From: Deltaproteobacteria bacterium
GTDB lineage: Bacteria; Myxococcota; Myxococcia; SLRQ01
Length of the DNA stretch: 64,000 nt
Reading direction: 5' to 3'
Assembly: GCA_029210625.1 (NCBI GenBank)
Contig: JARGFU010000002.1
Span: 62,001-126,000 of the forward strand
The position numbers were made by a program, and so were the translations under genes. The notes beneath the pieces were generated by a model. That model did no database searches and was not told where the DNA came from. It saw nothing but the letters and a program-made list of their open reading frames with translations. Positions 54,066-64,000 of this stretch are shown one piece after another (positions within the stretch are counted from its first letter, which is position 1; each line of letters starts with the position of its first letter).

Positions 54066-54103
54066 GGGGAGTCGTCCCCCCTTGACAGCTTCGAGCGGAA
54101 GCT
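54066..54103 (-). terminator. Hairpins between the 2-oxoacid dehydrogenase and sspB genes
   Basis: AGCTTC (54087-54092) pairs with GAAGCT (54098-54103), and GGGGA (54066-54070) with TCCCC (54075-54079). They sit at and just past the stop of the E1 beta gene on the minus strand. No U-run follows, so any termination is probably weak or Rho-assisted. Confidence 0.35.
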
Positions 54104-55202
54104 ACTTGCCGCCCTCGACGACGTAGGGCGCGGCCTGCTCGCCGAGGCCCCGCTCGGTGGCGATGGCGCGCATCGCCTCGAGGACGTCCGCGGGCTGCGG
54201 CACGGTGGCGTGCTCGAGGTTCGGGTGGAGGCCCACGCCGGGGACGTTGGCGGCCGCGAGCAGGCGCGGGCGCGCCTCGAGCACGTAGAAGAGCTCGTCG
54301 ACGATCCGGCGGATGAGGTGCTCGCCGAAGTTGGTCACCTCACTGTCCTCGTTGATCACCAGCACCCGGCGGGTCTTCTCGACCGACTGGCAGATCGCGT
54401 CCCAGTCGTAGGGGAAGAGGGTGCGCAGGTCGATGACGTCGAAGGTGTAGCCCTCCATGGCCAGCTGGTCGGCCGCCTTCGCGGCCATCTGGGCCTGCCG
54501 CGAGTAGGAGAGGATCGTGGCGTGCTTGCCCTCGCGCATCAGCTTGGCCTTGCCGATCGGCACCCGGTAGAGCTCGAGCTCGGGCCAGTCGGGCTCCCAC
54601 TGTGCGCCGTCGGCGCCCACCGGTTTGTCGATGCGGCGCGAGAGCTCACGGGCGTCGGCCGGCTCGCCGGGGATCAGCTCCTTGCCCTTCACCCGCAGCA
54701 GGCCCTTGGGCTCGAGGTAGAGCACCGGGTTCGGATCCTCGATGGCCGAGAGGAGCAGGCCGTAGGCGTCCAGCGGCGTCGAGGGGCAGACCACCTTCCA
54801 GCCGGGGAGGTGAGTGGCGATCGTGTCGAAGGAGTGCGAGTGGTAGATGGAGCCGTGGATGCCGGCGCCCACCGGCGTGCGCACCACGATGGGCAGGTCG
54901 AACATCCCGCGGGTCGCCCAGTGGATCATGCCGGCGATGCGGAGGTGATCGATGGCGTTGAGGATGTAGTCGGCGAACTGGATCTCGGCGACGCAGCGCT
55001 GGCCGGTCAGGCCGATGCCGATCGCCACGCCGATGATGCCGCGCTCGTCGAGGGGAGAGTTCCAGGCGCACTTGATGCCCTGGGTGCAGGTGAAGGCTCC
55101 CCCCAGGGGAGGGCCGACGTCCTCTCCGAAGACGTCCTTGAGCTCGAGGTGCTCCTCCGCCATGTGGAGGGCCATCCGGATCGCCTGGGCCATGTTCGCC
55201 AT
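54102..55202 (-). CDS. 2-Oxoacid dehydrogenase E1 component, beta subunit
   Basis: A 366-residue transketolase-like E1 beta subunit (branched-chain 2-oxoacid or acetoin dehydrogenase type). The pyrimidine domain starts at MAQAIRMALHMAEEH and GIIGVAIGIGLTGQRCVAEIQFADYI; the C-terminal domain has ATILSYSRQAQMAAKAA and DVIDLRTLFPYDWDAI. It binds thiamine diphosphate with the alpha subunit encoded 35 bp upstream. A 22-nt pure pyrimidine run on the plus strand (55211-55232) gives a GA-rich ribosome region before its ATG. E2 and E3 genes are not in this window. Confidence 0.92.
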   Translation of the reverse strand: MANMAQAIRMALHMAEEHLELKDVFGEDVGPPLGGAFTCTQGIKCAWNSPLDERGIIGVAIGIGLTGQRCVAEIQFADYILNAIDHLRIAGMIHWATRGMFDLPIVVRTPVGAGIHGSIYHSHSFDTIATHLPGWKVVCPSTPLDAYGLLLSAIEDPNPVLYLEPKGLLRVKGKELIPGEPADARELSRRIDKPVGADGAQWEPDWPELELYRVPIGKAKLMREGKHATILSYSRQAQMAAKAADQLAMEGYTFDVIDLRTLFPYDWDAICQSVEKTRRVLVINEDSEVTNFGEHLIRRIVDELFYVLEARPRLLAAANVPGVGLHPNLEHATVPQPADVLEAMRAIATERGLGEQAAPYVVEGGK

Positions 55203-55237
55203 CGTCTCGTCCTCTCTTCTCTCTTCTCTCTCGCTGC

Positions 55238-56230
55238 CTAGGCGTAGATGTTCTCGTAGATGGTCTCGGGCCGCGGGAAGGGCTCCTGCCGTACCTCCTC
55301 GAGGTCCCGGGCGGCCTGCTCGCGCTCCTCGATCCAGGCGGCGGCGAGCTGGTCGGCCTCGGCGACGCCCCGCTCGATGAGCTGGGCCTCGAAGGCGAGG
55401 ATCGCGTCCTCCTCGTCGTGGGTGCGGGCGGCGCCCGAGGCCGACGAGTGGCCGTGGAGGCGGGAGACGTTCGCCTGCAGGGCGTAGGGCTTCCGCTCCC
55501 GCCGGCAGTAGGCGATCGCCTCGTGGAGGGCGTCCCAGGACTCGAAGAAGTCGTTGCCGTCGATCATCTTCCAGGGGATGCCGAAGGGCTCGGCCCGGGA
55601 GATGAGCTCGCGCATCGGCCACTGGGTCTCGCGGCGGGTGCTGATGCCGTACTCGTTGTTCGTCATCAGGATGAGCAGGGGGATCTCCTGCTGCGGCCGC
55701 GACGACCAGATCAGCGCGGTGGCGAAGTCGCCCTCCGCCGAGCCGGCGTCGCCCCCCGTCACGATCGAGATGCCGGTGCCGCCGTGGCGCCGCTGCACCC
55801 AGGCGGTGCCCGGGGCCTGGGAGTACTGGGTGCCGATGGTCGAGGTGGTCGGCATCCAGTTCCAGTCGCGCACCGCGATGTGGTTCACGAAGTTGCGGCC
55901 GCCCGAGAAGGGGTCGGTCGCCGTGTTGCGCATCTGGCGCATCAGGTCCTTGGGATCACCGCCCAGGGCGAGGTAGGTCGCCGCCTGCCGGTAGTGGAAG
56001 TGCAGGTAGTCGTGGTCGGGGCCGAAGCCCCGGTCGATCTGCAGCCCCAGGGGCACGTTGAAGGCCTCCTCACCGGGGCCTCCGATCCAGAAGAAGCCAT
56101 CACCCCGGCGGTAGAGCGAGATGACGCTCTCCTCGGTCACCCGCGCCCGCACCATCACCCGGTGGGCGTGGAGGAGCTCCTCCGCCGTCAGCTGGTCGGC
56201 CCTCTTCTCGCGAATCTTCTCTCGGTCCAT
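55238..56230 (-). CDS. 2-Oxoacid dehydrogenase E1 component, alpha subunit
   Basis: A 330-residue E1 alpha subunit. The thiamine diphosphate motif is GGDAGSAEGDFATALIWSS followed by MTNNEYGIS, and the neighbouring SRLHGHSSASGAARTHDEED resembles the phosphorylation-loop region of branched-chain E1 alpha. It decarboxylates a 2-oxo acid and passes the acyl group to lipoyl-E2. The start is the ATG at 56230; a GTG lies one codon upstream. A palindrome CAACGCGTTG (56250-56259) upstream may be an operator. Confidence 0.92.
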   Translation of the reverse strand: MDREKIREKRADQLTAEELLHAHRVMVRARVTEESVISLYRRGDGFFWIGGPGEEAFNVPLGLQIDRGFGPDHDYLHFHYRQAATYLALGGDPKDLMRQMRNTATDPFSGGRNFVNHIAVRDWNWMPTTSTIGTQYSQAPGTAWVQRRHGGTGISIVTGGDAGSAEGDFATALIWSSRPQQEIPLLILMTNNEYGISTRRETQWPMRELISRAEPFGIPWKMIDGNDFFESWDALHEAIAYCRRERKPYALQANVSRLHGHSSASGAARTHDEEDAILAFEAQLIERGVAEADQLAAAWIEEREQAARDLEEVRQEPFPRPETIYENIYA

Positions 56231-56233
56231 CAC

Positions 56234-56547: not shown

Positions 56548-57312
56548 ATGCGCGCCAACTCTCCGCTCCTGCGAGCCGCCCGGATCACCGGGCTGGCCGT
56601 GGTCTCCCTGCTCATCGTCACCCTCGTCGTCCTCCCCAGCATCCTGATCGGCGCCTTCTTCCTCCGGCCGCTGGGGCTGCTCCTGGCCATCGTGGGCATC
56701 GTCGCGATCGCCGCCAGCCCGGGCTTCCGCCGCTGGTTGGGGCTGGAGAAGGCCGAGCACCCGGTGCCCGAGGGCCTGAACCTGCCGGTGGACGTCGCCA
56801 TCCACCCCCACCACGCCTGGGCCGCCCGGGTCGACCGGGACCGGGTCCACGCCGGGGCGGATCATCTCCTGCAGCGCGCGCTCGGCCCGCACGAGAGCAT
56901 CGCGCTGCCCCTGCCCGGCACCCGGGTGGAGCAGGGACAGACCCTCTTCACCCTCGCTCGCGGAGATCGACGCGTCGACGTCCAGGCGCCGGTCTCCGGC
57001 AAGGTCCTGCGCACGAACCCCGAGCTGCAGCGGAGCCCGGACCTCCTCGAGGCCGACCCCTACGTCGACGGCTGGGTGGTCGAGCTCGAGGCGCCGCACT
57101 TCGAGGAGGAGCGCGTCACGCTGCTGCGTCACCCCGACGCCTGGTCCTTCCTCGCCCGTGAGCAGGAGCGCCTGATCCACCTGGCGCACGCCTTCAAGGG
57201 CCAGCCGGTCCTCCTCGCCGACGGTGGCGAGCTGGTCGGCGGCTTCCACTCCCGGATCGACGACCGGGCCTGGCGAAAGATCCTCGTGCGCCTCTTCGGG
57301 GCCGAGGCCTGA
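56548..57312 (+). CDS. Membrane-anchored H-protein-like subunit A (no lipoyl lysine)
   Basis: A 254-residue protein with two N-terminal membrane helices (about 13-58) and a glycine-cleavage-H-like domain (about 80-182). The H-fold text is HHAWAARVDRDRVHAGADHLLQRALGPHESIALPLPG, then VEQGQTLFTLARGDRRVDVQAPVSGKV and DPYVDGWVVEL. Where GcvH carries the lipoylated Lys (11 residues before the Gly of APVSG) it has D140. A C-terminal region (PVLLADGGELVGGFHSRIDDRAW) is shared with the two paralogues at 59463 and 60185. It starts the cluster with the HybA- and HybB-like genes. Function unknown. Confidence 0.8.
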   Translation: MRANSPLLRAARITGLAVVSLLIVTLVVLPSILIGAFFLRPLGLLLAIVGIVAIAASPGFRRWLGLEKAEHPVPEGLNLPVDVAIHPHHAWAARVDRDRVHAGADHLLQRALGPHESIALPLPGTRVEQGQTLFTLARGDRRVDVQAPVSGKVLRTNPELQRSPDLLEADPYVDGWVVELEAPHFEEERVTLLRHPDAWSFLAREQERLIHLAHAFKGQPVLLADGGELVGGFHSRIDDRAWRKILVRLFGAEA

Positions 57313-57351
57313 CCCCTCTCTTCTCTCGTCTCGAACGAAGGAGCCCTTCCC

Positions 57352-58215
57352 ATGAAACGCCGCACCTTCCTGTCCTTCGTCGGCCTGGCCGGGGGCACGG
57401 CGCTCGCCAGCAAGCTCGCGAGCGCCCGGCCCTCGACCGGCGAGGCCGCGCCCGATCCCGAGATGAACGGGATCCTCATCGACACCACCCGCTGCGAGGG
57501 CTGTCACACCTGCGAGGAGGTCTGCGCCGAGGCGCGGGGCTTCCCGGAGCCCGACCTCTCCGACGAGGCCCTCGCCAGTGTGCGCGACACCACCACGAAG
57601 AGCCTGACGGTCGTGAACACCTTCGAGGTGGACGGCGAGGAGATCTACGTGAAGCGGGGTTGCATGCACTGCTCGCAGCCCGCCTGCACCTCGGCCTGCC
57701 TGGTGAACGCCATGCACAAGGATCCCACCGGGCCCGTGACCTGGGACTCCCGTAAGTGCATGGGCTGCCGCTTCTGCATGATCTCCTGCCCCTTCGACGT
57801 GCCGAAGTTCGAGTACGACGAGGCGGTCCCGAAGATCCTCAAGTGCACGATGTGCCTCGATCGCCAGCAGGCGGGCGAGGTGCCCACCTGCGTGGAGAAC
57901 TGCCCCGGGGAGGCGCTGAAATTCGGCAAGCGCCGCGAGCTGCTCGAGGAGGCGCGCCGGCGCATCTACGGCAGCCCGAAGGGGACCTACTTCCCGCACA
58001 TCTACGGCGAGCACGAGGCCGGCGGCACGGGGGTCCTCTACCTCTCCGCGGTGCCCTTCGAGAAGCTCGGCTTCCCCACCCGGATCGGGAACGAGGCCTA
58101 CCCCGGCTACAGCCGCGGCTTTCTCTACTCGGTCCCCTTCATCTTCATGGTCTGGCCGCTGGCCCAGCTGGGCTTCCGCCAGGCCGCCGTCGCGCGTGAG
58201 GAGGAACAGGAATGA
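57352..58215 (+). CDS. HybA-like four-cluster ferredoxin subunit (Tat-exported)
   Basis: A 287-residue iron-sulfur protein. The N-terminal KRRTFLSFVGLAGGTALA is a twin-arginine signal, so it folds before export. Sixteen Cys make four 4Fe-4S sites: C48/51/54/58, C104/107/112/116, C136/139/142/146 and C165/168/180/184. A C-terminal membrane helix (about 257-275) is as in HybA. It should pass electrons between a periplasmic partner and the HybB/NrfD-like subunit, whose gene overlaps it by 4 bp. No catalytic molybdopterin or hydrogenase subunit gene is in the cluster. Confidence 0.92.
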   Translation: MKRRTFLSFVGLAGGTALASKLASARPSTGEAAPDPEMNGILIDTTRCEGCHTCEEVCAEARGFPEPDLSDEALASVRDTTTKSLTVVNTFEVDGEEIYVKRGCMHCSQPACTSACLVNAMHKDPTGPVTWDSRKCMGCRFCMISCPFDVPKFEYDEAVPKILKCTMCLDRQQAGEVPTCVENCPGEALKFGKRRELLEEARRRIYGSPKGTYFPHIYGEHEAGGTGVLYLSAVPFEKLGFPTRIGNEAYPGYSRGFLYSVPFIFMVWPLAQLGFRQAAVAREEEQE

Positions 58216-59438
58216 GCCCCCCGACCCAGACCCTCGCTGGCACCCCCGGCTCCCTCCTCGGCTTCGTCGGCCGGGAGCTCAAGCCCAAGGGGAAGATCTT
58301 CACTCCCTTCAACCTGATCTCGGCCCCCCTGATCCTCCTGGGCCTGGTGCTGATCGTCATCCGCTTCGCCTACGGGCTGGGCTCGGTGACGAACCTCTCC
58401 CAGGCCTACCCCTGGGGCCTGTGGATCGGCTTCGACGTGATCACCGGCGTCGCCTTCGCCGGCGGCGCCTACGTGCTGACCTTCATGGTCTACATCCTGG
58501 GGATGGAGAAGTACCGGCCCATCGTGCGGGCGACGGTGCTCAACGGCTTCCTGGCCTACGCCTTCTACGCCGGCGCGCTCCTCCTCGACCTCGGCCGCCC
58601 CTGGAACATCGTCAACCCGATCATCGGCAACTCCTTCGGCTACAGCTCGGTCCTCTTCCTGGTGGCCTGGCACTTCCTCCTCTACATGGCCGCGCAGTTC
58701 CTCGAGTTCTCGCCGGTCGTGGCGGAGTGGCTCGGCCTGAAGCGCGCGCGGAAGATCCTCGCCGGCCTGACCGTGGGGGCCGTGATCTTCGGCGTCACCC
58801 TCTCCACCCTCCACCAGTCCGGGCTCGGCGCCCTCTTCCTGATGGCCAAGGGGAAGATCCACCCCCTCTGGTACTCGGAGTTCATCCCGGTGCTCTTCTT
58901 CTGGTCGAGCATCTTCGCCGGGCTCTCGATGGTCATCATCGAGGGGTCGATCAGCCACCGTGTCTTCCACGACCGGCTCTCCCCGGACGTGAAGCGCTCG
59001 AACGACGCGATCCTCGTGGGCCTCTCCCGCATCTGCGGGGTGGCGATCTTCGGCTACCTCTTCATGAAGGTGCTCGTGCTGATCCACGACGGCGGCTTCG
59101 CCGAGCTCGCGAGTGGCTGGGGCGGCTGGTTCCTCCTCGAGGTCGTGGGCTTCGTCGCCGTGCCGATGGTCCTCTTCCTCTGGGGCGCCGCGAAGCGCGG
59201 CCTCTGGATGATCCGGATCGGCGCGGGGATGACCCTGATCGGCATCATCCTCAACCGGCTCAACATCTCGGTGATCGCCTTCAAGTGGTACGAGGTGAAC
59301 CGCTACGTCCCGAGCTGGGAGGAGATCGCGGTCACCCTCGCGGTCATCCTGGCCGAGATCTGGGTCTTCCGGTGGGTCATCCGCCGCATGCCCGTCCTCT
59401 CCGAGTCCCCGAGCTGGGCCCAGGAGCAGGGCCACTGA
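58212..59438 (+). CDS. HybB/NrfD-family quinone-interacting membrane subunit
   Basis: A 408-residue integral membrane protein with about ten helices. It matches the HybB branch of NrfD proteins (FNLISAPLILLGLVLIVIRFAYGLGSVTNLSQAYPWGLWIGFDVITGVAFAGGAYVLTF region, described by its Trp, Asp and Gly-Gly positions). Such subunits pass electrons between a ferredoxin subunit and menaquinone. The gene overlaps the HybA-like gene by 4 bp. Direction of flow cannot be read from sequence. Confidence 0.92.
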   Translation: MSPPTQTLAGTPGSLLGFVGRELKPKGKIFTPFNLISAPLILLGLVLIVIRFAYGLGSVTNLSQAYPWGLWIGFDVITGVAFAGGAYVLTFMVYILGMEKYRPIVRATVLNGFLAYAFYAGALLLDLGRPWNIVNPIIGNSFGYSSVLFLVAWHFLLYMAAQFLEFSPVVAEWLGLKRARKILAGLTVGAVIFGVTLSTLHQSGLGALFLMAKGKIHPLWYSEFIPVLFFWSSIFAGLSMVIIEGSISHRVFHDRLSPDVKRSNDAILVGLSRICGVAIFGYLFMKVLVLIHDGGFAELASGWGGWFLLEVVGFVAVPMVLFLWGAAKRGLWMIRIGAGMTLIGIILNRLNISVIAFKWYEVNRYVPSWEEIAVTLAVILAEIWVFRWVIRRMPVLSESPSWAQEQGH

Positions 59439-59462
59439 TTGCACCTCCAAGGAGCCAACCCC

Positions 59463-60185
59463 ATGGACGCCTTCCACTACATCGACATGTTCGCCACCAA
59501 GGGGGTCGAGTACCTCCTGGTCATCGCCTTCCTCGCCGCGATCGTCCCCTTCTGGATCTGGCTGCAGCGCTCGAGCAGCGAGGAGCGGCCCCGCCGGCTC
59601 GTCCTGGAGACGGGCGCCGGGCTGGCGCTGATGCAGCGCCCCTTCGCCCCGGCCGACGTGCTCATCGACGCGGGCCACACCTGGGTGCGCCCGGCCCGGG
59701 CGCCGGGGCTGCTGGCGGTGGGGATCGACAACCTGGTCACCGAGGTCCTCGGGGATCTCGACGCCATCGAGGTGCCCCCGGCCGGCACCCCGCTGAAGGT
59801 CGGGGACCCCCTCTTCACCCTCCGGCTGGGGGAGCGCGCCTGGGTGCTGCCCGCCCCCGTCGACGGGGTGGTCGCCAAGATCGACGACGACGCCATCGCC
59901 CGGCCGCGCTCGATCATCGCTGACCCCTACGGCGGAGAGTGGCTGACCCTCGAGCCCGGAGAGAGCACCCCCGAGCCCGGGAGGCTGCGGGAGGGCGAGC
60001 GGGCCAACGCCTGGCTCGACGACGAGTTCGACCGGCTGATCGACCTGCTCACCTCGCACCCGGCCCAGGCCACGCCCTACTTCGCGGACGGCGCCTACCC
60101 GGCGGTCGGCGTCCTGGCCCGGACCGACGACGCCCTCTGGCAGGCCTTCCAGGATCACTTCCTGACCCAGCAGAGGAACGAGTGA
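59463..60185 (+). CDS. Membrane-anchored H-protein-like subunit B (no lipoyl lysine)
   Basis: A 240-residue protein with one N-terminal helix (about 16-35) and an H-protein-like domain (about 68-165): DAGHTWVRPA, LAVGIDNLVTEVLGDLDAIEVPPAG, LKVGDPLFTLRLGERAWVLPAPVDGVV. The position of the lipoyl Lys is E124. The C-terminal region has the paralogue signature YFADGAYPAVGVLA. AAGGAGCC before the ATG at 59463 is a good ribosome site and rejects the earlier in-frame codons. Its stop overlaps the start of subunit C by one base (TGATG). Confidence 0.82.
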   Translation: MDAFHYIDMFATKGVEYLLVIAFLAAIVPFWIWLQRSSSEERPRRLVLETGAGLALMQRPFAPADVLIDAGHTWVRPARAPGLLAVGIDNLVTEVLGDLDAIEVPPAGTPLKVGDPLFTLRLGERAWVLPAPVDGVVAKIDDDAIARPRSIIADPYGGEWLTLEPGESTPEPGRLREGERANAWLDDEFDRLIDLLTSHPAQATPYFADGAYPAVGVLARTDDALWQAFQDHFLTQQRNE

Positions 60186-60880
60186 TGAACGCCACCTCCC
60201 TCATCCTGGCCCTCGTCGCCCTCGGCCTCGCGCTCCTGGCGCTCGTCTTCCTGCTGCCGCGCCGCAACCTCCTGCCGCGGGCTCCCGAGCCCCGGCCGGG
60301 GGTGCCCGGGATGCGCCCCCCCCACCTGCCGAGCGGGACCTTCCTCGACGCCGGGCACACCTGGCTGCGGATCGCCCCCGACGGCTCGCTGCGGATCGGG
60401 GTGGACGCCTTCCTGGCGGAGGCCCTGGGGCGGGTGGAGCGGGTCCACCTGCCGGCGCCGGGGCGCTGGGTCGGCCGGGGTGAGGCGCTGCTCGAGCTCG
60501 AGCTGGGCGGGCGGCGCCTGCGCCTCTTCTCACCGGTCGAGGGGGAGGTGCAGCGGGTGAACGAGGCGCTCGAGGAGCAACCCGGCCGGCTGACCGACGA
60601 TCCCTACGGCAACGGCTGGGCGCTCACGATCTGGAGCCGCAACCACAAGGCGGCGATCCGTCCCCTCAAGATCGGCCCGGTGGCCGTCTCCTTCCTGCGG
60701 CGGGAGCTCGAGCACCTGCTCGACTTCCTCCCCCGCACCGAGGGCCGGGCGGCCTCACCGCTGCTGGCCGACGGAGGCCTGCCGCGGCGGGGGGTGCTGG
60801 CCGAGCTCGGGGAGCGGGGTTGGCCCCTCTTCCAGCAGGAGTTTCTGGATCCGGTGGTCCGTCGCGCCTCTCCTCCCTAG
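60185..60880 (+). CDS. Membrane-anchored H-protein-like subunit C (no lipoyl lysine)
   Basis: A 231-residue paralogue of subunit B. One N-terminal helix (about 5-24) precedes an H-protein-like domain (about 53-150): DAGHTWLRIA, LRIGVDAFLAEALGRVERVHLPAPG, VGRGEALLELELGGRRLRLFSPVEGEV and DPYGNGWALTIW. The lipoyl Lys position is G109. The C-terminal signature is SPLLADGGLPRRGVLAEL. It is translationally coupled to subunit B. Three such paralogues with one HybA-HybB pair suggest that they form a fixed part of the complex. Confidence 0.82.
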   Translation: MNATSLILALVALGLALLALVFLLPRRNLLPRAPEPRPGVPGMRPPHLPSGTFLDAGHTWLRIAPDGSLRIGVDAFLAEALGRVERVHLPAPGRWVGRGEALLELELGGRRLRLFSPVEGEVQRVNEALEEQPGRLTDDPYGNGWALTIWSRNHKAAIRPLKIGPVAVSFLRRELEHLLDFLPRTEGRAASPLLADGGLPRRGVLAELGERGWPLFQQEFLDPVVRRASPP

Positions 60881-60904: not shown

Positions 60905-62524
60905 ATGCGGCGACTCCTCGCCAAGCTCCGCTGGGACACCCTCGCGAGACACCTCTCGGGCACCCTGATCGTCTCGGTGGCGTTCCTCCTGGCGGCGCAG
61001 GCGATCATCCAGATCCAGCTCCAGGACGGCTACGCCCGCCGCAGCCTCCAGGACAGCGCCCTGCGCCTCTCGGACGTGCTCTACAGCGCGCTGCACAGCG
61101 CCATGCTGGCCAACGACCGGCAGCGCCTCCACGACGACGTGCACGCCATCGCGGAGCGCTCACCCACCACCCGGATCCGGGTGCTGAACAAGGAGGGCGT
61201 GGTCGTCTTCTCCTCGGCCCACGGCGAGGAGGGGAGGGCGGTCGACCTGAGCTCCGAGGCCTGCATCCGCTGTCACGGCGACGAGCAGCCCCTCTCCGAG
61301 CTGGCGCCCGGCGACCGCGTCCGGCGCTTCGCCTACGAGGGGCTGCCGGCCATCGGGGTGATCCGGCCCATCGACAACGAGCCCGCCTGCGCCGTGGCGG
61401 GCTGCCACGCCGGGCCGGAGAAGCAGCGCCTCCTCGGGGTGCTCGACGTGACCCTGCAGATGACCGAGGTCGAGCGCCGGCACGAGCCGACGGTGCTGCT
61501 CATGGGCGGGACCGCCACCCTGGCCCTGGTCTTCATCGTGCTCATCGTCCTCGCGGTCGTGCGCAACGCCGTCCACCGCCCCCTGGGGAGGCTGATCGAC
61601 ACCCTCGATCGCATCGGCAAGGGCGACTACACCGCCCGCCACACCCCAGAGCGAATCACCGAGTTCGACCGGCTGGGCGACGCCGTGAACCAGGCGGCCC
61701 GCGACCTGGAGAAGGCCAACGCCGATCTGGTGGTCTGGGCCCAGTCCCTCGAGCGGCGGGTCGACGCGAAGACCGAGGAGCTGCGCGTCGCCCAGGAGCA
61801 GATGCTGGCGGTGGAGCGGATGGCCTCCCTCGGCCGCCTGGCCGCGGTGGTCGCCCACGAGATCAACAACCCCCTGGCCAGCGTGCTGGTCTACTCCCGC
61901 CTGCTCCTCAAGCGGGTGAAGGGGCGCAGCGCCTCGCCCCGGGTGGGGGAGGAGGACCTGGAGATCCTCGATGGCATCGCCTCGGAGTCGGCGCGCTGCG
62001 GGGAGATCGTCTCGAACCTCCTCACCTTCGCCCGGCAGGGTGACACCCGGATGGAGCCCACCGAGATCAACCCCGTGATCCGCCGGGTGGTCTTCCTGCT
62101 CAAGCACATGATGGACCTCGAGGAGGTCGAGCACCGGCTGGAGCTGGACCCCGAGGTGGGGGAGGTGCTGGTCGATCCCTCCCGCTTCGAGCAGGCCCTC
62201 CTCGGCCTCTGCGTGAACGCCATCGACGCCATGTCCGGGGGCGGCGTCCTCACCCTGAGCTCGCGGCCCGAGCCGCCCTCGGGGGTGCGCATCGAGATCC
62301 GGGACACGGGGGTGGGGATCCCCCAGGGGATCCTCGACCGGATCTTCGAGCCCTTCTTCACCACCAAGGATCACGGCGACGAGCGCGGGCTCGGCCTCGG
62401 TCTGGCGGTGGTCTACGGGATCGTCCAGCGCCACGGCGGGACGATCGATGTCGAGAGCTCGGTGGGGCAGGGCACCCGCTTCGTGCTGGTCTTCCCCGGC
62501 CGTCCCACCCCCGACCTGGAGTGA
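60905..62524 (+). CDS. Sensor histidine kinase with haem-c-like periplasmic sensor
   Basis: A 539-residue kinase. TM1 is about 20-38 and TM2 about 198-220. The periplasmic part has C120-I-R-C-H124, a canonical c-haem motif, and C162-A-V-A-G-C-H168, a CX4CH variant. A HAMP region follows (221-274), then a coiled coil, the phosphoacceptor H318 (VAHEINNPLAS), and an HATPase with NAIDAM, DTGVGIP and GLGLGLAVV. It likely senses redox state or a haem ligand and phosphorylates the next gene's product, encoded 3 bp downstream. Confidence 0.93.
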   Translation: MRRLLAKLRWDTLARHLSGTLIVSVAFLLAAQAIIQIQLQDGYARRSLQDSALRLSDVLYSALHSAMLANDRQRLHDDVHAIAERSPTTRIRVLNKEGVVVFSSAHGEEGRAVDLSSEACIRCHGDEQPLSELAPGDRVRRFAYEGLPAIGVIRPIDNEPACAVAGCHAGPEKQRLLGVLDVTLQMTEVERRHEPTVLLMGGTATLALVFIVLIVLAVVRNAVHRPLGRLIDTLDRIGKGDYTARHTPERITEFDRLGDAVNQAARDLEKANADLVVWAQSLERRVDAKTEELRVAQEQMLAVERMASLGRLAAVVAHEINNPLASVLVYSRLLLKRVKGRSASPRVGEEDLEILDGIASESARCGEIVSNLLTFARQGDTRMEPTEINPVIRRVVFLLKHMMDLEEVEHRLELDPEVGEVLVDPSRFEQALLGLCVNAIDAMSGGGVLTLSSRPEPPSGVRIEIRDTGVGIPQGILDRIFEPFFTTKDHGDERGLGLGLAVVYGIVQRHGGTIDVESSVGQGTRFVLVFPGRPTPDLE

Positions 62525-62527
62525 GCC

Positions 62528-63811
62528 ATGGAAGATCCGATCCGGCTGCTGGTCGTCGATGACGAGGCGCACGTCTGCATCTCCCTGGAGGGCTGGTTCC
62601 TGGAGGAGGGCTACGCCGTGAGCACGGCGCGCTCGGGGCTCGAGGGCCTCGAGGTCGCCGCCCGGGAGCAGCCGCAGATCATCCTGGTCGACTTCAAGAT
62701 GCCGCAGATGGACGGCCTCACCTTCCTCACCCGCGTCCTGGAGGTGCTGCCGAACGCGACGGTCGTGCTGATGACCGCCTTCGGCTCGGTGGACAGCGCC
62801 GTGCAGGCGCTCAAGGAGGGGGCCTACGACTACATCCTCAAGCCCTTCGATCCCGAGCAGCTCTCGCGCCTGGTGGCCAAGGCGGCGGCTCGCTACGCCA
62901 CGCCGACCGCGGCGCGTGCGGTGGAGGAGCGCCTCGAGGCCGCCTTGCCCCCGGTGATCGCGGCCGAGGGCGGGGAGATGGCGCAGGTGCTCGAGCAGCT
63001 CGAGCGGGTCGCCGGCTCCCGGGCCTCGATCCTCCTGCGGGGGGAGAGCGGCACCGGCCGGCGGCTGCTGGCCCGGCGGATCCACGCCCACAGCCCCCGG
63101 CGCTTCGGCCCCTTCGTCACCGTGGACTGCTCCTCGGTCTCGGCGACCGACGTCGGCTGTGATCTCTTCGGTGACGGCGAGGGGCGGCAGGGCGGGATGG
63201 AGCTGGCGCGAGAGGGGACCCTCTACCTCGCCTCCCTCGACCGGATGATGCCGCGGATCCAGATCGAGCTCCTGCGCCGCCTCGAGGCGGCGCGGGAGGC
63301 TCCTTCCGAGCTGCGGCTGATCAGCGCCACCGAGGGCGACCTCGAGCTCGAGGTCGCGTCCGGGCGCTTCCGGCGGGATCTCTTCCTGCGGGCGGCCGTC
63401 TTCACCGTGGACCTGCCGCCCCTGCGCGAGCGGCCGGAGGACCTGCCCCTCCTGGCCCGGCACTTCCTCGCCGGGCTCGGAGAGGGGCGCGCCCGGCCCG
63501 TCGAGAGGATCAGCGAGGCCGCCCTCGAGCTCCTGCTCCACCACTCCTGGCCGGGCAACGTCCGAGAGCTGCAGCAGGTCATCGAGGCCGCGGTGCTCCG
63601 CTGCGAGGGCGCCGAGCTGAAGGCCGAGCACCTGCAGCTCGCCGATCCCCTCGCCACCCGGGACCTGCGCCTCGCCACGGCGGAGGCGCGGCACCTGCGC
63701 CGCGTGATGCTGCTCTGCGGGCACGACGTGGATCGGGCCGCGCGGGAGCTGGGGCTGGAGCTGCCCGCGCTGCTCGAGAAGCTTCACCATCACGGCATCG
63801 CGCAGCGGTGA
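62528..63811 (+). CDS. NtrC-like response regulator with degenerate ATPase
   Basis: A 427-residue protein. A receiver domain (1-120; D55 in LVDFKMP, K105) is followed by an NtrC-like AAA domain (about 145-370) and a short Fis-like helix-turn-helix end. The AAA core is degraded: Walker A is GESGTGRR with R178 for Lys; the GAFTGA loop that touches sigma-54 is absent (LFGDGEGRQGGMELA); Walker B lacks Asp-Glu (TLYLASLD, A235 S236). FRRDLFLR and WPGNVREL remain. It probably regulates without sigma-54 or ATP hydrolysis. GTGA overlap with the next gene. Confidence 0.9.
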   Translation: MEDPIRLLVVDDEAHVCISLEGWFLEEGYAVSTARSGLEGLEVAAREQPQIILVDFKMPQMDGLTFLTRVLEVLPNATVVLMTAFGSVDSAVQALKEGAYDYILKPFDPEQLSRLVAKAAARYATPTAARAVEERLEAALPPVIAAEGGEMAQVLEQLERVAGSRASILLRGESGTGRRLLARRIHAHSPRRFGPFVTVDCSSVSATDVGCDLFGDGEGRQGGMELAREGTLYLASLDRMMPRIQIELLRRLEAAREAPSELRLISATEGDLELEVASGRFRRDLFLRAAVFTVDLPPLRERPEDLPLLARHFLAGLGEGRARPVERISEAALELLLHHSWPGNVRELQQVIEAAVLRCEGAELKAEHLQLADPLATRDLRLATAEARHLRRVMLLCGHDVDRAARELGLELPALLEKLHHHGIAQR

Positions 63812-64000
63812 GGATCGACCTCACCCTCATCGGGCGCGTTCCCCGGGAGGCCGCCGAGGAGGTGCTCGCGCGCCTGCCGCCCCCCTGGGTGGCGGGCAAG
63901 ATCGTCCCCTCCCGGCTGGTGCCCGACGACTTCCTCGATCCCGGGCGGGGGCAGGTGGACGCCGGCCAGCTCCTCGAGGCCCTCCCTCCCTCGCGGGCGG
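63808..64000 (+). CDS. Archaemetzincin-like metalloprotease, 3' truncated by window
   Basis: Only the first 64 codons are in the window, from a GTG overlapping the upstream stop (GTGA). The N-terminus (IDLTLIGRVPREAAEEVLARL) and especially VPDDFLDPGRGQVDAGQLLEALP match the opening of archaemetzincins, where the family has P-x-x-A/F-x-x-P-x-R-x-Q-Y/V and a following LL-x-x-L helix. The zinc motif HExxHxxGxxHC would lie beyond the window, so assignment rests on this short stretch. Coupling to the response regulator gene suggests one transcript with the electron-transfer cluster. Confidence 0.6.
   Translation, partial: MRIDLTLIGRVPREAAEEVLARLPPPWVAGKIVPSRLVPDDFLDPGRGQVDAGQLLEALPPSRA

Follow-up and report, generated by a model that had tools for sequence, protein, structure and literature searches.

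At the end of the window, the 64,000-nucleotide stretch of DNA that was analysed, lies an operon of eight plus-strand genes that encode H-like A (HlA), a ferredoxin (Fd), an NrfD-type subunit, HlB, HlC, a sensor kinase, a response regulator, and an archaemetzincin (table 1). An earlier note on this DNA had described five genes. All five are found at 56548–60880 on the plus strand, but the operon is longer, with the kinase, regulator, and archaemetzincin genes coming after HlC. Gaps of 39, 24, and 3 bp separate HlA from Fd, HlC from the kinase gene, and the kinase gene from the regulator gene, respectively, and overlaps of 4 bp, 1–4 bp, and 4 bp join Fd to NrfD, HlB to HlC, and the regulator gene to the archaemetzincin gene. 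NrfD and HlB are adjacent if the TTG start of HlB is used and 24 bp apart if the ATG start is used. The archaemetzincin gene ends ∼350 bp past the window. A tie to the divergent E1 alpha/beta dehydrogenase gene upstream was dropped because this gene is missing from the cassette that is conserved in relatives.

Table 1. Features of the operon (positions are those of the window).
Feature	Position	Strand	Evidence
HlA: hydrophobic hairpin (∼2 TM helices), GcvH-like barrel, C-terminal ADGG region	56548..57312	+	Pfam GCV_H, hydropathy, charge
Fd: Tat-type 16-Cys ferredoxin, HybA/HmcB/DsrO-like	57352..58215	+	NCBIfam HmcB, Cys positions, RR leader
NrfD/HybB/HmcC-type integral membrane subunit, ∼10 TM helices (hydropathy)	58212..59438	+	Pfam NrfD, NCBIfam HmcC, HybB residues
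HlB: GcvH-like barrel behind an HmcD-like TM segment; ATG at 59463 is the likely start	59439..60185	+	Pfam GCV_H, HmcD profile, AF2
HlC: one TM helix, GcvH-like barrel, ADGG region	60182..60880	+	Pfam GCV_H
Sensor histidine kinase: two TM helices enclosing the sensor region; HAMP, HisKA, HATPase	60905..62524	+	
NtrC-family response regulator	62528..63811	+	Pfam Response_reg + Sigma54_activat
Archaemetzincin (M54), cut by window end, continues to about 64347	63808..64000	+	L053:11809-12348, Pfam Peptidase_M54

The ferredoxin was correctly described earlier as Tat-exported with 16 Cys; it has an RRTFLSF Tat-type leader and its cysteines form four clusters. Its top NCBIfam match is HmcB (296.6 bits, under the equivalog cut-off of 420). 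The membrane subunit exceeds the Pfam NrfD cut-off (43.3 vs. 25.8 bits) and matches NCBIfam HmcC at 404.2 bits, under the equivalog cut-off of 550. Both proteins also score below the NCBIfam equivalog cut-offs for HybA and HybB. The functional residues R89, Y99, E148, and H184 of HybB (PMC8076601) correspond to R106, Y116, E165, and H201 in the window NrfD and are retained in 78–80 of 80 NrfD relatives (the best 80 of 264). The subunit has a putative quinone site and proton path.

HlA, HlB, and HlC have the H-protein barrel previously claimed for them. All three exceed the Pfam GCV_H cut-off of 22.2 bits (56.9, 44.6, and 63.2 bits, respectively) and share 32–34% pairwise identity. The fold matches that of GcvH at target-normalised TM-scores of 0.8–0.9. 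Their scores on NCBIfam gcvH (37–59 bits) are under the equivalog cut-off of 115.85, and a separate true GcvH is encoded in this genome as well as in the relatives examined. The DPYxxxW motif, cited earlier as a shared feature, is present in all three proteins but is ruled out as distinctive by DPYGDAW in this genome's GcvH. The C-terminal ADG-x5-G region, on the other hand, is present in all three and missing from that GcvH, as had been proposed. At the position of the lipoyl lysine, HlA has Asp, HlB has Glu, and HlC has Gly, and in only a few of ∼250 related barrels is there a Lys in this column, outside the ESxKA context. A role as lipoyl carriers is rejected for HlA, HlB, and HlC because the lysine is missing, a loss that in this respect fits the earlier suggestion of barrels that are structural or bind an unknown carrier.

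HlB resembles a membrane subunit of HmcD type that bears a barrel. Its AF2 model (pLDDT of 87) has a TM helix at residues 9–39 and a GcvH fold, the HmcD profile matches residues 17–42 below its cut-off (E of 0.0014), and plain HmcD-like peptides at loci L111 and L112 match its N-terminus. Charge bias places the HlB barrel on the inside in 69 of 72 cases. From the topology that we infer, barrels are predicted to face the cytoplasm, across the membrane from the ferredoxin. In Bacteroidota relatives, the position of HlA is occupied by a fusion of a PstS-like domain, a TM segment, and a barrel.

The sensor region of the kinase has two haem-c-type motifs, CIRCH and CAVAGCH, which are candidate haem sites; a CxxCH/CxxxxCH pair is present in kinases of 59 of 63 relatives. 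The archaemetzincin passes the Pfam Peptidase_M54 profile (51.4 bits), scores 107.7 bits on NCBIfam archmetzin (below the cut-off of 145), and has the motif HEAGHxxGLVHC...CAM...CPSC (locus L053), which fits HExxHxxGxxxC...CxxC. In 13 of 13 relatives examined, the sole M54 gene of the genome sits in the cassette. By hand count across 29 genomes, 33 of 42 M54 genes have an H-like gene within 8 kb. We know of no established role for bacterial archaemetzincins.

Across relatives, the cassette is conserved while its flanks are unconserved or unrelated. Neighbourhoods were counted for the best 80 of 264 NrfD relatives, which are 64–70% identical to the window NrfD and represent at least six phyla. 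In 51 of these 80, the complete order HlA–Fd–NrfD–HlB–kinase–regulator–archaemetzincin is present, and the operon type occurs in many unrelated anaerobic bacteria. An H-like gene is 5′ of the ferredoxin gene in 69 of the 80 and directly 3′ of NrfD in 73, consistent with the predicted co-occurrence with hybAB, and conservation of this make-up likewise supports the proposal of a quinone-linked module. The cassette is self-contained and lacks a catalytic subunit, cytochrome, or ligase gene. The claim that no cytochrome is encoded with these genes stands for the operon here but not for related loci, where 3-, 4-, 9-, or 13-haem cytochromes adjoin the pair. Three barrel-less loci of the NrfD clade encode a 13-haem cytochrome as well as a peptide of HmcD type, the latter detected in L111 and L112, and the sequence examined at these three loci contains neither a matching regulator nor an archaemetzincin.

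The H-like family is wider than the NrfD complex. We sampled 40 H-like loci from two phylum-wide searches, in two other phyla, picked from ranked matches and not at random, and in only 15 of the 40 is this NrfD within 6 kb. The remaining 25 have no NrfD nearby, 14 of the 40 lack both NrfD and archaemetzincin, and in the window's own phylum the same is true of 15 of 18 further loci (again ranked picks, not random). Some of the loci without NrfD adjoin the kinase/regulator/archaemetzincin set. H-like domains are also fused to Fe–S electron-transfer proteins (one HdrA-like) and to MvhD-type, Nqo3-type, receiver, and PstS-like domains. The earlier note had held that H-like genes found mostly apart from hybAB would count against its complex; in these ranked samples they are, which weakens the idea of an obligate complex of three barrels dedicated to hybAB alone. 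The most fitting reading of the barrels is accordingly as adaptors that link redox modules with the signalling set, not as dedicated subunits of one complex.

NrfD-type complexes are central in anaerobic respiration and, to our knowledge, in the named ones the membrane subunit is paired with a catalytic enzyme or cytochrome. The conserved partners of NrfD here are barrels without a cofactor site, a kinase with haem motifs, a regulator, and a rare metalloprotease. Similarity to Hmc (HmcABCDEF) of sulfate reducers lies in Fd and NrfD, which match HmcB and HmcC best (NCBIfam), and in HlB, which appears to start like HmcD. However, HmcA (the 16-haem cytochrome), HmcE, and HmcF are encoded neither in the operon nor in its flanks, the putative HmcD-like subunit bears a GcvH-like barrel, and the operon has its own haem-motif kinase, regulator, and archaemetzincin. 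With HybA/HybB of [NiFe]-hydrogenase 2 it has in common a Tat ferredoxin and an NrfD-like subunit with the same four residues, but the sequences fall under equivalog cut-offs and the hydrogenase subunits HybO and HybC are not encoded in the operon or near flanks. DsrO-DsrP, Qrc, Nrf, and other NrfD-type modules combine a ferredoxin with a quinone-interacting NrfD-like subunit (PMC8076601). The pair is alike, but the catalytic partner is missing here, and a term search of the text of that review found no mention of glycine-cleavage-type subunits.

H-like proteins have the fold of GcvH but differ in lacking the lipoyl lysine and in having a membrane anchor or 4-Cys N-terminus and a C-terminal ADGG extension. 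LbpA of sHdr sulfur oxidation is similarly a GcvH-like protein that works alongside an Fe–S redox complex (PMC6067878). LbpA keeps the lipoyl Lys, is lipoylated, has two conserved Cys, and has hdr genes nearby, and its described clusters are not known to include NrfD, kinase, or archaemetzincin. In contrast, HlA, HlB, and HlC have no Lys at the site and no Cys at all, and there is no hdr gene in their operon. A literature search, with subscription journals largely outside its coverage, found no published description of such a complex, in agreement with the statement in the earlier note that no named one was known, and no paper that pairs archaemetzincin with NrfD or a histidine kinase, or GcvH with NrfD.

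We tentatively favor a reading of the operon as a quinone-linked Fe–S membrane module with a signalling set, in which barrels act as docking adaptors. NrfD would bind (mena)quinone and swap electrons with the periplasmic 16-Cys ferredoxin, probably with proton movement. The ferredoxin would swap electrons with c-type haems of periplasmic cytochromes encoded elsewhere in the genome and possibly also with the kinase of the operon at its two haem-type motifs. In the cytoplasm, the non-lipoylated HlA, HlB, and HlC, with the barrel of HlB presumably built on an HmcD-type subunit, would dock the kinase, regulator, and archaemetzincin onto the redox complex, and the signalling set would control, and perhaps also read, the Fe–S membrane module. 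Co-occurrence in operons and fusions do not prove that barrels dock. More broadly, non-lipoylated H-like domains could be a general adaptor family through which a haem-sensing two-component system and archaemetzincin are plugged into several redox complexes (NrfD/HybA, HdrA/MvhD-like, and Nqo3-like), a possibility that we hold with some doubt.

Alternatively, the operon could encode an ordinary quinone–cytochrome electron-transfer complex with barrels that are only structural and a kinase, regulator, and archaemetzincin that just control expression or quality. Consistent with this are the putative HmcD-type subunit continued in HlB, the barrels conserved next to NrfD in almost every one of the best 80 of 264 relatives, and the multihaem cytochromes of related loci, but H-like domains recur next to these regulators at loci without NrfD and also occur in fusions with receiver domains, and members of the NrfD clade that lack barrels also lack the regulators; we consider it unlikely. 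It is improbable that the operon as a whole works as a redox sensor with little catalytic flux, in which NrfD and ferredoxin relay the quinone redox state to haems of the kinase. The self-contained cassette and conserved haem motifs would suit a sensor, yet retention of the HybB proton-path residues suggests turnover, and those relatives that have attached cytochromes resemble electron carriers.

The two remaining explanations concern the barrels themselves. Given their intact GcvH fold, they could carry a non-lipoate group, covalently attached or bound, for example on the basic residue (Lys/Arg) that follows the old lysine position in 65 of 67 HlA and 66 of 70 HlB barrels of the cassette. But this residue is Arg in window HlA, HlB, and HlC and is not retained across the wider H-like family, and with no ligase in the cassette we find such a role very hard to credit. 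That gene order is incidental and H-like genes serve glycine or one-carbon metabolism, as the Pfam name GCV_H would imply, has a negligible chance of being right; the true GcvH encoded elsewhere in the genomes speaks against it, and conservation of the cassette across phyla and the lost lipoyl lysine refute it in practice.

The operon may represent an undescribed wiring between a respiratory complex and regulators of its own, and the same barrel is elsewhere joined to other electron-transfer proteins and receiver domains. If barrels are adaptors, they would connect electron transport with gene control in a form that can be used repeatedly, spread over many phyla of bacteria from sediment and groundwater, and it would become possible to test what bacterial archaemetzincins do. 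If the adaptor family is general, respiratory complexes would have a shared means of signalling their own redox state, and bacterial archaemetzincins would gain a first functional setting.

By motif comparison, both GAFTGA and Walker B have been lost from the window regulator. No sigma-54 promoter is conspicuous in the window either, with an equally high score reached in 69 of 500 shuffles; sigma-54 autoregulation is thus unlikely in this organism. In relatives, GAFTGA is kept in 60 of 61 regulators, and a sigma-54-type motif is 5′ of HlA in 53 of 65 (0.3 expected) and before the other six cassette genes in 0–1. With a sigma-54 activator as regulator and a single sigma-54-type promoter on the operon, the system is probably autoregulated in these relatives.

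Gene reading confirmed the five genes described in the earlier note at their positions; they encode three H-protein-like barrel proteins (HlA, HlB, and HlC), a ferredoxin, and an NrfD protein. All three barrels exceed the GCV_H Pfam cut-off in profile searches and, with an ordinary GcvH encoded on another contig, are the only four matches in the genome. The ferredoxin has a Tat-type leader and 16 cysteines in four groups, and its gene overlaps that of NrfD by 4 bp. Downstream, the operon runs on through genes for a sensor kinase with CIRCH and CAVAGCH motifs, an NtrC-type regulator, and an archaemetzincin (peptidase family M54) whose gene ends ∼350 bp past the window.

We searched contigs, one genome per species, with the window NrfD and studied the best 80 of 264 relatives (64–70% NrfD identity), found in Bacteroidota, Chlorobiota, Gemmatimonadota, Krumholzibacteriota, Eiseniibacteriota, Acidobacteriota, Neomarinimicrobiota, and other phyla. 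Among these 80, a ferredoxin gene is present in 78, an upstream H-like gene in 69, and an H-like gene directly 3' of NrfD in 73; kinase, regulator, and archaemetzincin genes are present in 63, 61, and 54, respectively. The full cassette is found in 51, with contig ends interrupting several of the remainder, and gene content of its flanks varies between relatives without conservation. In a tree, cassette NrfDs group with those of one family of relatives' genomes (f3) and others in a well supported set that excludes HybB and further paralogs; five more distant NrfDs with H-like linkage are outside the cassette set. Within the window's own class, the nearest ferredoxin–NrfD pairs are only ∼41–48% identical and most genomes lack the pair, which makes horizontal acquisition of the window copy probable.

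The ferredoxin and NrfD fall below the HmcB/HmcC and HybA/HybB equivalog cut-offs of NCBIfam profiles. HybB residues at which substitutions impaired hydrogenase 2 (PMC8076601) are kept in the window NrfD as R106, Y116, E165, and H201, and in 78–80 of the best 80 of 264 relatives, making a quinone- and proton-linked role likely. In f3 genomes, genes for a haem-motif kinase, an M54-like protein, and a regulator typically lie ahead of the ferredoxin–NrfD pair; after it come an H-like gene, one for a three-haem cytochrome c7, another H-like gene, and one for a nine-haem cytochrome. These cytochromes, and four-haem cytochromes at other loci, make a c-type cytochrome the probable periplasmic partner.

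The structure model of HlB (pLDDT 87) has one TM helix, the GcvH fold, and C-terminal helices; its start resembles HmcD. Charge bias predicts a cytoplasmic HlB barrel in 69 of 72 cases, and the layout of Bacteroidota HlA (signal-like helix, PstS-like domain, TM helix, then barrel) fits a cytoplasmic barrel opposite a periplasmic ferredoxin. Residues at the lipoyl-lysine position are Asp, Glu, and Gly in HlA, HlB, and HlC; across 137 cassette barrels (67 HlA, 70 HlB), Gly is the usual residue there and the next is typically Lys or Arg. Lys occupies this column in three of 87 further family members, in each case outside the ESxKA context seen in GcvH. The window barrels lack the traits that define GcvH and LbpA.

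The barrels look like portable adaptors that would link redox proteins to a kinase–regulator–protease set. H-like proteins that carry the C-terminal extension also turn up where NrfD is missing. Two phylum-wide searches supplied 20 loci each; within 6 kb, NrfD is found in nine and six of these, archaemetzincin in five and 14, and a regulator in 13 and 15. Of 18 further H-like loci from the phylum of the window, picked for lying away from known NrfD clusters, three have archaemetzincin. Some barrels are fused to redox or receiver domains (table) or to a 4-Cys N-terminus. The main rival is that the barrels are purely structural. The three NrfD-clade members without a barrel are likewise missing the matching regulator and protease within the sequence available at those loci, a co-absence that fits the adaptor reading. 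Two of these loci (L111 and L112) encode plain HmcD-like peptides beside 13-haem cytochromes. The component families are known; we found no description of this gene set in the open-access literature searched.

Coordinates of features in the window and in loci extracted from genomes (L-numbers; L053 continues the window locus)
Feature	Coordinates	Strand	Remarks
2-oxo acid dehydrogenase E1 alpha and beta genes	54102-56233	minus	divergent, directly upstream of HlA; outside conserved cassette
Operon NtrC-type regulator	62528-63811		receiver and Walker A intact
Canonical NtrC regulator	L053:12327-13652	minus	just past window end; has GAFTGA
Frame with 14 CxxCH motifs	L053:13694-15538	minus	follows canonical NtrC gene; signal-peptide-like start in another frame, same strand, so frameshift possible
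Small Cys-rich protein	L038:6800-7018		∼73 aa, MSCPYLTEVSMVFCRAYPVKKLVP..., just upstream of ferredoxin; also at similar f3 loci; no Pfam match
PstS-like phosphate-binding domain–TM helix–barrel fusion	L078:7347-9014		52 similar loci, mostly Bacteroidota
Two tandem barrels in one protein	L113:11222-12475		Gemmatimonadetes MAG
Barrel + HdrA-type Fe-S/flavin protein	L203:5708-9109
Barrel + MvhD + Fe-S	L200:6607-9522
Barrel + Nqo3-like ferredoxin	L162:4898-6289
Barrel + receiver domain	L187:6434-8077; L188; L163
Soluble H-like proteins	L206:6319-7239; L061:3659-4390; others		N-terminal motif like CIWMxAGVVxYKxCxxxxDCxxC, possible metal or Fe-S site; no Pfam match for motif

Upstream of HlA, TGG[CT]A[CT]-N5-TTG is present in 53 of 65 relative loci versus 0.3 expected from shuffles, and it precedes any other cassette gene in at most one locus each. 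This near-exclusive placement, along with retention of GAFTGA in 60 of 61 relatives' regulators, points to a single sigma-54 promoter for the operon in relatives. The window regulator, unlike those 60, has lost the GAFTGA loop and Walker B, and no comparable sigma-54 promoter is evident in the window operon, which argues that its regulation differs from that of relatives or has decayed.

In all 13 cassette genomes examined, the sole M54 gene sits in the cassette, and a hand count in 29 genomes selected for having H-like genes found such a gene no more than 8 kb from 33 of the 42 M54 genes; bacterial control genomes had no M54. Three further archaemetzincin-like M54 genes are on contigs C1, C4, and C43 of the window's own genome, none adjoining H-like genes.
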